Origin: Stigmatella ashevillena
Lineage (GTDB): Bacteria > Myxococcota > Myxococcia > Myxococcales > Myxococcaceae
Assembly (NCBI RefSeq): GCF_028368975.1
Contig: NZ_JAQNDM010000002.1
Location: forward strand, 4,830,425 to 4,894,424
Reading direction: 5' to 3'
DNA length: 64,000 nt
Both the position numbers and the translations under genes were made by a program. Below, one piece after another: positions 16,427 to 23,060 of this stretch. Each line of letters opens with the position of its first letter. The first letter of the stretch is position 1. The notes under the pieces were generated by a model, which saw only the letters and a program-made list of their open reading frames with translations, had not been told where the DNA came from and searched no databases.

Positions 16427-19400
16427 TTACCGGCCCACGAGGGCCAGGAGCTGCGCGCCATAGCGCTCGACCAGCTTCGGCCCCACGCCCTGGATGGCCA
16501 TGAGGGCCTCTCGGTCCTCGGGCCTCATGGCGGCGATGGCCCCGAGCACCCGGTCCGTGAGGATGCGGAAGGCGGGAACCCGCCGCTTGCGCGCCTCGGC
16601 CAACCGCCACGCCTTGAGCGCCTCCACCAGCGCCGGAGAAGGCTTCGGGGGTGGCATCGCCTGCCGCCCTCCTCCACCTCGCCTCACGCCAATGTCTTGC
16701 GTCTCTTCCCAGTCCTCCTCGGCCATGGGGGGCGCATCCATCCCCTCCCAATCCCGGACAACGGAAGCATTGCCTCCCGGCGGCTGCCGCGGGGCTGCTC
16801 GGCGCGCTTCTGGCGCCCCTCGCGGGGCCGCGCGGCGGGGTTTCGCCGGGCGCGCTCCGGCGGCCTTGCCCCGGGAGGTCCGGCGCTTCTTCGCGGATTT
16901 CGCCTCGAGCGGCATCGGCAGCATCACCAGGTTGGGTTCGATGACGCGCGTGCGCTGGCCCTCTGGGGTGAGCGTCAGCCGTTGGAACGAAATGCTCTGC
17001 CCGTCCTTCTCGAAGGAGTCACCGCTCAACCGGGTCAGCCCCGCGCGCACCATGCCTCCCACCAAGCGCTCGAACTCGCGGCGCGGCAGCGCGTCCCCGA
17101 AGAGCTCGCGGTGCAGACGACCCGTGGCCTGTCCATCCCGCTCGTGCAACGCATCCAGGATGCGGCCCAGGGCCTGCAACTCGCGCTCGCCCGGCTCGGC
17201 GAAGCGCAAGGTGACACACGTCTCGGGCGCGCACACATCACACAGCCCACAGGGCTTGCCCGAGTCCTGCACGTCGCCGAAATGGCTCACCAGGTGCCGC
17301 ATCCGGCACCCCGAGGCCTCTGCGTAACGCCCCATCTGCTCCAGGTGGAGCATCTTGCGCTCGCGCTGCGCCGTGTACGGCGCCGGCCACTCGGGCCTCC
17401 CCCGGCGCACGCTCTCGTCCGGGGTCATCTCCAGCCCTCCGTGAATCCAGAGCTGCTCGAGGGCCTTGTCGAACACCTCGGGGTCCATGCGCACGCGGGC
17501 CTGAATGGCCTCCTTGGGCTCCAACTCGGGACTGGCCGCATGGAATAGCTTCGCCAGCACGGAAGGCTCCGGGTAGTCGCGCTGGTGGAAGAACTCGTGC
17601 GTGCGGCGGTCCACGTAGGAGTGCAGCAACACCGCGCGAGAGGGTTTTCCATCCCGCCCCGCACGCCCCAGTTCCTGGTAGTAGCCCTCCAGGCTCGCGG
17701 GCAGTGCCGCATGCACAACGGTGCGGACATCTGCCTTGTCGATGCCCATCCCAAAAGCTGTCGTGGCGACAATCACTTCCAACCGCCCTGACAGGAATGC
17801 CGACTGGACCCGGTCCCGATCCGCCGGGGCCATCCCCGCGTGATACACGGCCGAGGGGAAGTCCTCCGCCAGCCGCTCCGCGAACTGCTCGGCGTGCTTG
17901 CGCGTGGAAGCGTAGACGATGGCGGGGCGGTTCTCAGGCTCGGCCAGCACATCGCGGATGGCATCGCCCCGCTGGCCGGGGTTCAGCTCGCGCACTTCGA
18001 TGGCGATGTTGGTGCGGCGGAAACCATGAATGAAGGTGCGCGAGGCCCCGCCCCGCAAGCCCTTCAGCCCCAGTTGCTGGACGATGTCGCGCTGCACATC
18101 CGGCGTCGCCGTGGCGGTGAGCGCGACGACGGGCGAGGGACGCAGCAGGGGCAACCGCGCGCCCAGCAGCCGGTAGTCCGGCCGGAAATCATGTCCCCAC
18201 TGGGAGATGCAGTGCGCCTCGTCGATGGCGATGAGCGCGGGCGGGCGCCGCGCCAGCAACTCCACGAAGCCAGGAACCCCCAAGCGCTCGGGCGCGATGA
18301 AGAGAAAATCCAGCCGCCCTTCCAGGTAGTCCGTGCACACCTGGCGCGAGGCAGCCCTGTCCCGCCCCGAGTGGATGCGCTCCGCCGCGAACCCAAGCGA
18401 CTGGAGCCGCGTCACCTGATCCTCCATCAAGGCGATGAGCGGGCTGACCACCAGCGTCGTCCCTGCCCGCGCCAGCCCTGGAAGCTGATAGCAGAGGGAC
18501 TTGCCCGCCCCCGTCGGCATCACCAGCAGCAGGTCCTCCCCCGCCGTGGCCGCCTTGCATACCTCCTCCTGGTATGGCCGGAAGTCCTCGAAGCCAAAGG
18601 CCTCTTTGAGCAGCCCCCGCAGCGCGTGGGGGGGCGTGGGGGTACGCGGGGTGCGTTCCACGCTGCGTCGGGAGGTTCCCTGCGGAGCCTCCACGCGCGC
18701 ACGCACGGTAGAAGGGCTGCTGGGGCTTGCGCCTGCCTGCCGGGGGCTTGAAAGCGGGGCACTCGCGGCCCTTTGCACGCCCAGAACCGTGGCGCTGGCC
18801 TGAGGAGCCCCAGAGGAAGGCGCACTGCTCGGGGAAGGCGGCCTCGGAGCCTCCCCACGCGGTGGCAGGGGCTGCGCGGGCATCTTGCCCACCACCTCGA
18901 TGACATAGGCCTCGATGCCCCGCAGGAAGGCTTGCAGGTCTCCCTGGCCTCGCTCGATGCGCTGAAGCCAGGCCTCCCACTGCCCTGTCATCGCTGGCGT
19001 CTTCACATCCGGGTGCACCACCTGGATGAGCCGGATGCCCTTCTCCGTCACCTCCAGGGACTTGCCCCGGCGCTGGAGGTACTCGCGCTCCAACAACACC
19101 TCGATGATGGCCGCGCGCGTGGCCGGTGTGCCCAGCCCCGTCTCCTTCATCGCGTCCGCCAGTTCCTTCTCGTCCAGCGTCCGCCCGGCGGTCTCCATCG
19201 CGGTCAACAGCGACGCATCCGTGAGGCGCGGAGGCGGCCGCGTGCGCTTCTTCACCGCCTCCACGTCTTCCACGCGCTGCTTCTGGCCCCGCGCCAGCAC
19301 GGCGGGGAGATCCTGCGGCTCGTCCTCGGGCTCTTTGCCTTCGCCCTCTTCCTTCGGGCCCTTGCCCTCGCGGCCCTTCGGCGGCCGCTGTCCTCCTCCG

Positions 19401-20866
19401 ATGTCCAACACCTTCCAGCCCACGCGCACCACCTGCGTGCCCGAGCTGTGAAAGCGATCCACCCGGGGCGAACCCGGGGCAGGCCCCGCCGAACTCACCG
19501 CCGTCACCACCGTGGTGACGGCCCAGACATGCTCGTCATGCCACGCCGCGAGCAACCGCCGACACACCAACTCATAGAGCCGCTTCTCATCCGGCGGCAG
19601 CCGCTCCCCCTCGGGGGAGGTGGCGGTGGGAATGATGGCGTGGTGATCCGTCACCTTCGCGTCGTCCACGAAGCGCCGACCCAGGGGCTTCTCCCCCGTT
19701 CCGGGCGCCAGCAAGGGCTCGTACGGCGCGCGGATGGCACGCACCACCTCGGGCAGGGTCTCCGCCACCGAGGCCGACAGGTGTCGGCTCGCCGTGCGCG
19801 GATAGCTCAGCAGCTTGTGTTTCTCGTACAGGTTCTGCGCCAGCTCCAACGTCCGCTGCGCGCTGAAGCCATAGAGCCGGTTCGCGTGCCGCTGCAGCTC
19901 CGTCAAGTCATAGAGGAGCGGCGACGGCATCCGCTTCGTCTCGGAGGTGAGCGACTCGATGGAGGCCTGGCCCGAGCGGACCCGCCCCATCACCGCTCCC
20001 GCCTCCACGCCATCGGCCGGCAGGCGCCGGGCCTCGCGGGCCGTCTCCGCCGTGCGGGCCCCTCCCTTCGGCTCCGCCTCGCGGAACCACGTCCCCCGGT
20101 ACTGCGTCCCCGCGGGCACCCCGGGCGCCTGGGGCGCGAAGGTGGCCACCACTTCCAGGTAGTCCTCCGGGACGAAGTCGCGGATGGCCAGCTCCCGCTC
20201 CACCAACATCGCCAAGGTAGGCGTCTGCACGCGTCCCACCGACAGCGTCTCCCCACATGCCAGCGTGTAGAGGCGCGACAGGTTCATCCCCACCAGCCAG
20301 TCCGCCCGGCTGCGCCCCTTCGCCGCGTCCGCCAGCGCGTCGTACGCGCGGCCCTCCTTGAGCGTCCGGAAGCCCTCGCGGATGGCCCCCTCCGTCAGCG
20401 ACGACACCCACAGCCGCTTCACCGGCTTGCGGCACCCGGCGGCCTCGTAGATGTAGCGAAATATGAGCTCGCCCTCGCGCCCCGCATCCGTGGCGCACAC
20501 CACCCCGGCCACCTCGGGCGCGTTCACCACCCCGCGCACCACCTCGAACTGCGACCGTGTGTTCCCAGAGACCACCAAGGGCCACTCGCTGGGCAGCATG
20601 GGCAATTGCTCCCGGTGCCAGCGCTTCCACTCAGGGTGTATCTCGTGTGGCTGCGCCAGTCCCACCAAGTGCCCGATGGCCCACGTCACCACGTAGCCGT
20701 TGCCCCGGAACCAGCCCTCGCCCCGCTGCGTGGCCCCGAGCGCCCGGGCGATGTCCCGCGCCACCGCGGGCTTCTCGGCCACCACGGCCAGCACGGACGA
20801 AGGCCCTCGGGGCGTCATGCCTCCGCCTGTCTGCTGGCGTGTCTCCCTCTCGGGTGCTGTGCCCAT
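16427..20866 (-). CDS. Topoisomerase III - RecQ helicase - HRDC fusion protein
   Basis: One uninterrupted frame of about 1479 residues joins two enzymes. The N-terminal 700 residues are a type IA topoisomerase of the TopB class: TOPRIM start [20 protein letters not shown], the motif [19 protein letters not shown], and catalytic Tyr near residue 355 in [14 protein letters not shown] low-complexity Ser/Pro/Ala linker leads to RecQ: Walker [16 protein letters not shown] near 780, [18 protein letters not shown] near 880, a four-Cys zinc site with CGLCDVC near 1190, and a winged-helix part. A second basic linker leads to a C-terminal HRDC domain. It would pass or decatenate strands at structures unwound by its own helicase. 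I chose the start at 20866 because GAGGTG lies 7 bases upstream; ATGs at 20881 and 20818 are alternatives. Confidence 0.93.
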
Positions 20867-21040
20867 CTCATCCCACCTCATACCTCCCCCTCCCCCGGCC
20901 CGCCTACCCACCCCGTGACGTCCCACCGCTCACGGCGAGCCCCCTTCCTTATCCCGGTGGACCGACACCTCGCCCGCCCCGGCGCCTCCTTGCACACAAG
21001 GCCGCCCGCTCTGCGGACAAGAAGGCATTCATCCCACCTG

Positions 21041-21187
21041 TGTGAAACCATTCACAGCCATTCAATCCCTCTCCTGTGAAACGCGTCACACAAAAGGCAC
21101 TCCGGTGTGAAGCCTTTCACCGCTCCGAGCCCCTCGGGTGTGACGCCGCTCACAGGCTCGGGCCCCTCGGGTGTGAAACCTTTCACA
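21041..21187. promoter_or_regulatory. Phased array of five TGTGA-N6-TCACA operators
   Basis: Five near-identical 16-base palindromes stand at 21041-21056, 21075-21090, 21106-21121, 21139-21154 and 21172-21187. Four are perfect TGTGA-N6-TCACA; the third has a final C instead of A. Start-to-start distances are 34, 31, 33 and 33 bases, about three helical turns, so all lie on one face of the DNA. The form is the classical CRP/FNR-family site. The spacers also partly repeat (CCCCTCGGG precedes the last two). The array lies 164 bases before the small plus-strand gene and 175 bases before the divergent topoisomerase-helicase gene, and may serve either. The rest of 20867-21350 shows no gene. Confidence 0.8.
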
Positions 21188-21350
21188 CCCCCGCGAGAGC
21201 GCTGTACACGGTGATGTTTTCATGCAACTGTTTGCATCAGCTTCCCGGGGCGGCGGCGCCATTGCCCGCTCCGGATCGCGCCTTCCGCCAGGGCGATCAG
21301 GGGAGTGGTACCGCGCAGCCACCATGGTCTGTGCATCCAGGAGACGCGCA

Positions 21351-21743
21351 ATGTCGCAATCGCTTGAGCAGCACCGTTCGCAGGGGGGGAAGTTGCCGGG
21401 GGGGGTGTGCGAGCTGGTCCTGTTCGCGGACGAGGGCACGGGTGCCCCCGCGACGAAGGCGCTCTCCCGGATGTCGTGGGGGGGCAGTGAGCTGTCCATG
21501 GAAGAGACTGTCACGGCACCGGGGCTGGCCGCTTTCGGTGGGGAAAAGCGGTTGCAGCTCGCCGCCCTCGCGGCCTCGAGGGTGACGCTTTCGTTGCGCC
21601 AGGTGGTGGAGGGAAGGACGTGGCTCGCTTCGCTGCTGCGCAGCCCGGAGTCCCGCCAGGGGCCCGCGGCGCGCCGCCGGACGAGCCGGGTTCTGGCCCT
21701 CCATCCCACGCGGCTGGTGAACGTGCTGAACAAAGAATGCTGA
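21351..21743 (+). CDS. Hypothetical protein, 130 residues, downstream of the operator array
   Basis: I do not recognise this protein. The ATG is preceded by AGGAG with good spacing, third positions are strongly G/C, and a textbook terminator lies downstream, so I believe it is a real transcription unit. The product (MSQSLEQHRSQGGKLPG ... ELVLFADEGTG) has no signal peptide, no membrane helix and no known motif. Its C-terminus is Arg-rich (AARRRTSRVLALHPTRLVN). Its last codons come from a 14-base tandem repeat. The operator array upstream implies tight regulation by a CRP-like factor. Confidence 0.6.
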   Translation: MSQSLEQHRSQGGKLPGGVCELVLFADEGTGAPATKALSRMSWGGSELSMEETVTAPGLAAFGGEKRLQLAALAASRVTLSLRQVVEGRTWLASLLRSPESRQGPAARRRTSRVLALHPTRLVNVLNKEC

Positions 21744-21758
21744 ACAAAGAGTGCTGAA
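21723..21758 (+). repeat. 14-base tandem repeat at the 3' end of a gene
   Basis: GTGCTGAACAAAGA, ATGCTGAACAAAGA and GTGCTGAA follow each other: 2.6 copies of a 14-base unit. The first copy supplies the final codons and the second carries the stop codon of the 130-residue protein. The unit is not a multiple of three, so a change in copy number would alter the protein's end. Confidence 0.75.
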
Positions 21759-21880
21759 GTCCTCTCCAGGGGGCGCCGGGGAATCCAAGGGCTCCGGCCT
21801 CCCTGGATGAGGATGCAGTCCGAAACCCGGGACGGATTCGCTCTCCTGAGGGGGTGAACGAACGCTGGCCCGGGTCGGTG

Positions 21881-21920
21881 AAGGGGATGTCTCGCAAGAG
21901 GCACCCCCTTTGCTTTTTTT
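21881..21920 (+). terminator. Strong intrinsic terminator
   Basis: The stem AAGGGG-AT-GTCTC closes on a GCAA tetraloop with GAGGC-AC-CCCCTT. TGC and seven T residues follow directly. The GNRA loop, long stem and T-tract make it an unusually good factor-independent terminator for this GC-rich DNA. It is oriented to end transcription from the small gene at 21351-21743. It finishes one base before the stop codon of the convergent epimerase gene. Confidence 0.85.
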
Positions 21921-23060
21921 CTAGGGCCGGGCCGTGGGCGGCCCCCCAGCCCCCGCCTGCTGGTGCCAGGCGGCGAGCACCTCGCGCTCCCGCTCCGAGG
22001 AGAGGCCCGAGCGCAGCTTCGCCTGCCGCTCCGGGGGCAGCGTCCGGAACCAGGTCAGCGTGTCCCGCACGGTCTCTTCCAGGGGGCGGAACCCCAGCCC
22101 CCGGGCCTGGGCCCGGGCGTTGCTCACCCGGCTCATGCCCAGCTCCGCGCTGGCGCGGGGAATCCACACGGGCATGTCCGACCAGGGGCTCACCTTCTGC
22201 GCCTCCAGGAAGGGGGTGGCCGCCCAGGTGAAGGTGGCGTTGCCTCCATTGGCCGCCTTGCACGTCTCCAGCAGCTTGCGAATGGGCAGCGTGTCCGCCG
22301 GCCCCGTCGCGTTGAAGACACCCATGTCTTGGTTTTCCACCAGGTCCACGAGGAAGGCCGCCAAGTCCCTCACGTCAATGAATTGCACCGGGTCCTCGCC
22401 ATCCCCCGGGGCCAGCACCTCTCCCCCCTGCGCCACACGCACCGGCCAGTAGGTGAAGCGGTCCGTCGGGTCGTCCGGCCCCACGATGAGGCCCGGCCGC
22501 ACGTTCGAGACGCGCCCCGGCATGGCGCGCTCCGCGGCCTGCTCGCACAGCGCCTTGAGGGCGCCGTAGTGCTGGGAGACGTCCTCCGTCGTCTCGTCCG
22601 CCACCGTGGCCAGGGGCGAGTCCTCGTTGATGCCGCCCTTGCTCGTGTCTTCGTAGACGGAGATGGAGGAGACGAACAGGTAGTGGCCCACATGGGGGGC
22701 GAGCAGCTCCGCGCTGGCCTTCACCACCCGCGGCACATACCCGGAGGTGTCGATGACGGCATCCCACTTCCGGCCCTCCAGGGCCTGGAGCTTGCCGTCG
22801 CGGTCGCCCTGGAGCTTTTCCACCTGCGGGAAGAGCCCGGGCCGTGTCTTCCCCCGGTTGAAGAGGGTGAGGGTATGGCCCCGGGACAGGGCCCGCTCCA
22901 CCAGCGCGGGGCCCAGGAAGGCGGTCCCCCCCAGAATGAGGATCTTCTTCTTCGCCACGGGCCGCTCCCGGTCCGCTGTCTTCGTCGAAGCACAGCCCAT
23001 CGCCCAGAGCGAGCCGAGCGCGGCCGCCCCCTTCATCAATCTCCTGCGAGTCAGACTCAT
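21921..23060 (-). CDS. Tat-exported lipoprotein NAD-dependent epimerase/dehydratase
   Basis: A 379-residue extended SDR/epimerase. The N-terminus MSLTRRRLMKGAAALG is a twin-arginine signal and ends in a lipobox (LWAMGC), so the enzyme should be folded in the cytoplasm and then anchored outside it. The Rossmann nucleotide-binding motif is ILILGGTAFLGPALVERA, followed by FNRGKT, VIDTSGYVPR, LFVSSISVYED and the catalytic YxxxK-like HYGALKALCE. An outward-facing NAD-dependent epimerase is uncommon, and the substrate is unknown. GGAGG precedes the start by 11 bases. Longer in-frame readings to the right would run into the transporter gene and are rejected. Confidence 0.87.
   Translation of the reverse strand: MSLTRRRLMKGAAALGSLWAMGCASTKTADRERPVAKKKILILGGTAFLGPALVERALSRGHTLTLFNRGKTRPGLFPQVEKLQGDRDGKLQALEGRKWDAVIDTSGYVPRVVKASAELLAPHVGHYLFVSSISVYEDTSKGGINEDSPLATVADETTEDVSQHYGALKALCEQAAERAMPGRVSNVRPGLIVGPDDPTDRFTYWPVRVAQGGEVLAPGDGEDPVQFIDVRDLAAFLVDLVENQDMGVFNATGPADTLPIRKLLETCKAANGGNATFTWAATPFLEAQKVSPWSDMPVWIPRASAELGMSRVSNARAQARGLGFRPLEETVRDTLTWFRTLPPERQAKLRSGLSSEREREVLAAWHQQAGAGGPPTARP

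Follow-up and report, generated by a model that had tools for sequence, protein, structure and literature searches.

The closest described relatives of the locus reported here are promoters that carry more than one site for a protein of the CRP/FNR family. At class III CRP promoters of Escherichia coli, one CRP site lies near the class-I position and the next ~32 bp upstream, with peaks of the Crp motif at −61.5 and −93.5, 32 bp apart (PMC5957442). The Vibrio cholerae tfoX promoter likewise carries several canonical CRP sites; these are two in number, placed at −84.5 and −41.5 and thus 43 bp apart, and the proximal one overlaps the −35 region (PMC4595672). At the mrpC promoter of Myxococcus xanthus there are at least four sites for a single CRP/FNR-family protein, MrpC, but the motif is another one and the setting is that of negative autoregulation through competition with MrpB at a sigma-54 promoter (PMC10701913). 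The window analysed here, a 64,000-nucleotide stretch of the Stigmatella ashevillena genome, holds a longer row of CRP-type sites between two divergent genes.

Results

A scan of the window located five 16-bp TGTGA-N6-TCACA dyads at 21041–21187. Site 1 (21041–21056, TGTGAAACCATTCACA), site 2 (21075–21090, TGTGAAACGCGTCACA), site 4 (21139–21154, TGTGACGCCGCTCACA) and the promoter-proximal site 5 (21172–21187, TGTGAAACCTTTCACA) are perfect, and site 3 (21106–21121, TGTGAAGCCTTTCACC) has one mismatch, its last base being C. Start-to-start spacings are 34, 31, 33 and 33 bp, and the rescan upheld the preliminary description in the number of sites, the count of perfect ones, the 31–34-base spacing and the CRP/FNR-type consensus. 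The array accounts for four of the 14 perfect matches in the 10.95-Mb genome (two contigs), where a reversed control pattern matched once, and no site with one mismatch or fewer occurred in 118,469 bp of background, taken from 18 fetched loci picked regardless of the motif and with known arrays excluded. On these two counts, the array is not a product of chance.

The sites had also been called helically phased. The part of this claim that stands is the near-constant repeat of ~33 bp, which is the unusual feature of the array: in random-spacing trials, a range of 3 bp or less arose with P ~0.01. Strict phasing, in which every site would face the same side of the helix, was rejected; at 10.5 bp per turn, neighbouring sites are offset by 86, −17, 51 and 51 degrees, the first and last sites lie 171 degrees apart, and the phasing value R = 0.59 was equalled in 25% of trials with random spacings of 20–44 bp. 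Because the sites lie on differing faces of the DNA, contacts between neighbours would require bending or flexible contacts.

All five sites occur in register in four of the seven genomes of the genus (G000, the genome of the window, with G005, G004 and G001), at spacings of 34 (33 in G004), 31, 33 and 33 bp, and the single mismatch of site 3 is at the same end in the three other array genomes; a search of relatives, as the preliminary description had proposed, thus recovered both sites and spacing. The 3.4-kb loci of the remaining genomes (G002, G003 and G006) contain no site within two mismatches. Across the four array genomes, invariant positions number 48 of 50 in the cores, 23 of 30 in the inner parts and 34 of 67 in the spacers (core versus spacer, Fisher p = 2e-8), a difference that amounts to a single deep comparison with little independent evolution, as the four genomes form two close pairs.

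A 33-bp tandem unit of 2.7 copies was detected in the array by TRF, suggesting growth by tandem duplication. Such a unit would also be expected if the array were a neutral tandem repeat, a series of RNA hairpins or a CRISPR-like array with no DNA-binding protein involved, and the dyads could form short hairpins. We nevertheless consider this reading extremely improbable: the cores are kept while the spacers change, the last base of site 3 is unpaired in all four genomes, and the motif also precedes crp-1 and other conserved genes outside any array (see below). Rfam returned three matches, all below their gathering scores; AEV_CRE, which covers the array (26.4 bits against a gathering score of 100), was rejected as an RNA element and taken as a chance match from the repeated dyads.

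Among 147 genomes of the class, an exact two-site pattern (exact dyads, 14–20 bp between sites) matched the same four genomes and no others. A search of 84,980 species for an exact three-site pattern, in a collection from which the window's own and near records were possibly left out, gave four records: one from Coriobacteriales, two Legionellales MAGs and Paenibacillus plantiphilus. These resemble the present array in having TGTGA-N6-TCACA at 30–34-bp spacing, but differ in their three sites, AT-rich surroundings and other neighbouring genes, and by eye the genes behind them show no resemblance to the small gene that follows the array. The two Legionellales arrays (L047, 5550–5628; L049, 5237–5314) lie between what appears by eye to be the same divergent gene pair. 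Arrays of this kind recur across bacteria, and the conserved five-site version with its ~33-bp repeat is unusual, in line with the rarity supposed at the outset. No five-site or comparable array was reported in the literature searched on tandem CRP promoters and homotypic clusters, and PMC8026907 contains none of the motif terms looked for.

Downstream of the array on the plus strand lies a gene for a protein of 130 aa (21351–21743), preceded by AGGAG at 21339–21343. The protein has no match in Pfam or NCBIfam; homologues are present in all seven genomes of the genus, with a weak one in another genus (G013). By dN/dS it evolves like a coding gene (0.09 for G000–G005, 0.52 for G004–G001 and ~0.53–0.57 between the pairs). 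Its AlphaFold2 model is poor (mean pLDDT 51, pTM 0.18), with helices at 59–75 and 78–96. The perfect terminator formerly ascribed to this gene could not be recovered: a consensus scan of 20800–21950 found no plus-strand terminator after the gene, its sole plus-strand match (21200–21213) lying upstream of the gene and its other match (21769–21754) on the minus strand.

Between site 5 and the small gene is a plus-strand core block (21202–21261), CTGTACA...TTCATGCAACTGTTTGCATCAGCT...GGCGCCAT, also abbreviated CTGTACA...TTCATGCAAnTnTTTG...CAGCT. Site 5 ends 14 bp before CTGTACA, and no array site overlaps the block. A consensus scan of 20800–21950 found no sigma-70 consensus promoter, so the assignment of TGTACA (21203–21208) as a −35 element stays a guess; if it is correct, the centre of site 5 falls near −59, with the other sites upstream of it every ~33 bp. 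In the array-less genomes G002, G006 and G003, and in G013, the small gene is preceded by a different shared block, CAAG-N3-TTGGCG followed by GGAAAACTC; G002 and G006 alone have GCAAGTGTTTG in exact form. The resemblance of this block to GCAACTGTTTG of the core block is a faint hint that the core may be the older promoter of the small gene, of which the Kelch-repeat gene described next would have received a copy.

The two-site pattern search of the 147 genomes also revealed a second array, of three sites, in G005 (C1:9462819) and G001 (C20:115169), with spacings of 31/33 and 31/34 bp. The protein encoded behind it has Kelch repeats as well as PKD-type domains, and its start reads like a lipoprotein signal. 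When the two arrays of G005 are compared, the last sites are identical at 15 of 16 positions and the core blocks at 53 of 62 aligned columns; identity is 2 of 14 in the linker formed by the next 14 bp, 31 of 66 beyond the core block and 52 of 112 columns for the 100 bp upstream. The linker sequence is therefore free, yet the distance from last site to core block is kept (13–14 bp), pointing to a nearly fixed distance. A search for the core block with up to three mismatches found four places in three of the seven genomes, each adjoining an array; that pattern misses the array-1 copies of G004 and G001, which are one base longer.

The Kelch/PKD proteins of G000–G006 form a large family, G000 by itself having 24 matching stretches. 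Of 30 fetched loci of this family, three have a site apart from the two with arrays, a perfect one at L107 and one-mismatch sites at L113 and L114, and the family as a general target was rejected on this ground. The site at L107 (position 1337; G001, C26) is a single perfect one, 164 bp (start to start) before the Kelch-family stretch.

On the other side of the array, the minus strand encodes a topoisomerase III–RecQ–HRDC fusion (16427–20881) whose start, MRW(D/E), is kept in all seven genomes of the genus. The protein, of ~1480 aa, is a natural fusion of RecQ–Top3 partners, with domains of topoisomerase III, RecQ helicase and HRDC in one chain, and long homologues start beside the small gene in G005, G004, G001, G002, G006 and G013, with a start piece in G003. 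In the latter genome, 6.6 kb separate the topoisomerase start (L085, 372) from the small gene (6981), and the interval between them contains, at a distance of 4.5 kb from the original, a partial copy of the start region of the topoisomerase gene (L085, 372–4927).

The array sits nearly midway between the starts of the two genes, at distances of 160 bp (topoisomerase) and 164 bp (small gene), a position that would suit service to the topoisomerase–helicase gene, alone or jointly with the small gene. We regard this as unlikely. At array 2, which has the same downstream block, the ORFs picked include no divergent gene, and a CTTCCTTATC block on the minus strand (20944–20953), ~65 bp before the topoisomerase gene, is kept not only in G000, G004 and G001 (with a one-base deletion in G005) but also in the array-less G002, G006 and G003. 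Together, the linkage seen at array 2 and the retention of the CTTCCTTATC block where there is no array make the small gene the more likely target. The proposal that the array is a switch for one of the divergent units is probably right, with the small gene as the more likely unit.

CRP-type proteins were collected with PF13545 at E 1e-7 or better. CRP-1 (G000 C2:4061014–4061673) and its paralogue CRP-2 (G000 C2:7340853–7341530) both combine cNMP and HTH_Crp_2 domains and have in common the recognition helix TRESTNK (R-E-x3-K). In E. coli CRP, R180 reads G2, and E181 and R185 read G4:C4 (PMC11253593; roles of these residues also in PMC10127613), and DdrI, with K at the last position of the helix, bound TGTGA(N6)TCACA (PMC11253593). 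By analogy, the helix of CRP-1 and CRP-2 is expected to read G4, and in these two the genome encodes CRP-cluster proteins of the predicted G4-reading type. In a hand-read alignment, their FGE...PRST cassette aligns with M. tuberculosis chains, with V and T replacing the presumed cAMP-contacting T and N of the C helix.

The preliminary description had pointed to MrpC as a lead and had noted one mismatch to its motif on each side of most sites. The protein that we take to be MrpC, from its sequence and its helix rather than a database label, is encoded in all seven genomes of the genus, as is CRP-1. The published motif, TGTYN8RAC, has the same outer TGT and AC as the array sites and was reported as E. 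coli CRP-like (PMC4320627). The mismatches are indeed there, but they fall exactly on positions 4 and 13: of the 20 sites in the four genomes, every one carries G at position 4 and none carries R at position 13. The helix of the MrpC-type protein, SRSFVST, has neither the E nor the R/K by which G4 is read, and TGTYN8RAC does not occur in 20880–21350. MrpC was rejected as the binder on these grounds, and use of the array as an MrpC operator in development is very unlikely. In the literature found on these bacteria there is work on MrpC, and none that we recognised on the CRP-1/CRP-2 pair.

A site with one mismatch or fewer lies upstream of crp-1 in all seven genomes of the genus, in six of them as one of a pair 23 bp apart when the partner is allowed two mismatches, and upstream of the MrpC-type gene none was found in any of the seven with up to two mismatches. 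Across the family, 17 of 30 CRP-1/CRP-2-like loci, with start codons placed by rule of thumb, have a site with one mismatch or fewer within 350 bp upstream and 13 have none, the latter comprising all four CRP-2 loci and 9 of the 26 other, CRP-1-like loci. In genus g32, all seven fetched loci (L208, L211, L213, L215–L218) show a pair of sites, 23 bp apart, upstream of the crp-1-like gene. A comparison of 96 family genomes, confounded by descent, gave 267 perfect motifs (control 22) in the 49 with a CRP-1-like protein and 34 (control 13) in the 47 without; within genus g38, counts do not separate the two groups (30 motifs in 14 genomes with the protein, 19 in 13 without).

CRP-2 is present in all four array genomes and in none of the three array-less genomes of the genus, a co-occurrence that may go back to a single event of descent. 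In genera g8 and g12, which encode two CRP-like proteins, the two-site pattern had no match, so a second CRP alone does not bring arrays.

All perfect sites of G000, G004, G005 and G001 were inspected with their neighbours; for G002, G003 and G006 this was done with one listed place each left out and two G006 places unlisted. The regions inspected were 12 of G000 (four around one-mismatch sites) and 40 of the other genomes, and domains were scanned in G000. In all four array genomes, the motif is found before genes for a homologous S8 protease that has an I9 domain and for a protein of 437–448 aa with a weak TPR match below the Pfam cut-off. It also occurs in all four between a divergent gene pair, one member of which encodes a GH3 glycosidase and the other a TPR-type protein that has two cNMP-binding domains, where the site, TGTGAGCCGGCTCACA, is identical throughout. 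This pair adjoins crp-2 (L029, 1851–5031; G000 C2:7338350–7341530), and the group could possibly form a cyclic-nucleotide signalling cluster. The remaining sites are common to two genomes or none, and some, which are intragenic (e.g., L152/L170 and L027), may be due to chance.

Discussion

We consider it probable, from comparison of the sequences, that the array is a lineage-specific, class-III-like activation array for CRP-1 and/or CRP-2, partly copied to a second gene. It would act as a homotypic operator of CRP-1 and/or its paralogue, with CRP dimers occupying five neighbouring sites: the proximal one, 13–14 bp before the core block that faces the small gene, would be close to the class-I position, and the further ones would follow every ~33 bp, as at class-III promoters. 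Such an arrangement would most likely raise occupancy by the activator and make the small gene respond more steeply to the signal of the regulator, which is perhaps a cyclic nucleotide. The array may have grown by duplication of a ~33-bp unit, and array and core block would later have come to stand before the gene for the Kelch-repeat protein as well, if we infer the order of events correctly.

CRP-type proteins can repress, and nothing in the sequence fixes the sign of the effect; moreover, two paralogues with the same helix could compete. CRP-1 or CRP-2 might therefore bind the array and repress, or the array might titrate the regulator. We consider this rather unlikely, since no site overlaps the core block and the 14-bp distance is kept at both arrays, as would be expected of activator sites, and activation by CRP-1 and/or CRP-2 appears more likely. 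A bolder version of activation, also rather unlikely in our view, is that the array is portable: in the CRP-2 lineage, a CRP operator would have been enlarged to five sites, forming an uncommonly steep, near-digital switch for the small gene, and the array with its core promoter would have been captured by the gene for a Kelch-repeat protein of surface type. If this is true, bacteria would here offer a natural example of clustered homotypic operators and of the capture of a promoter.

Beyond the array, the neighbours of the motif point to a CRP regulon that may include the protease, the glycosidase, the cNMP/TPR protein and others. The two arrays, the array-less sister genomes and the two CRP paralogues with the same helix together provide a natural series on the steepness of homotypic operators.

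The layout of the array resembles that of a class-III promoter lengthened to five sites. As in the E. coli promoters, its sites are of CRP type, and site 5 would lie near −59, counted from the guessed −35 element TGTACA, compared with −61.5 in E. coli (PMC5957442); it differs in having five sites instead of two and a core that lacks a sigma-70 consensus. Promoters with multiple CRP sites are already known; a conserved array of five at a ~33-bp repeat is rare among them.
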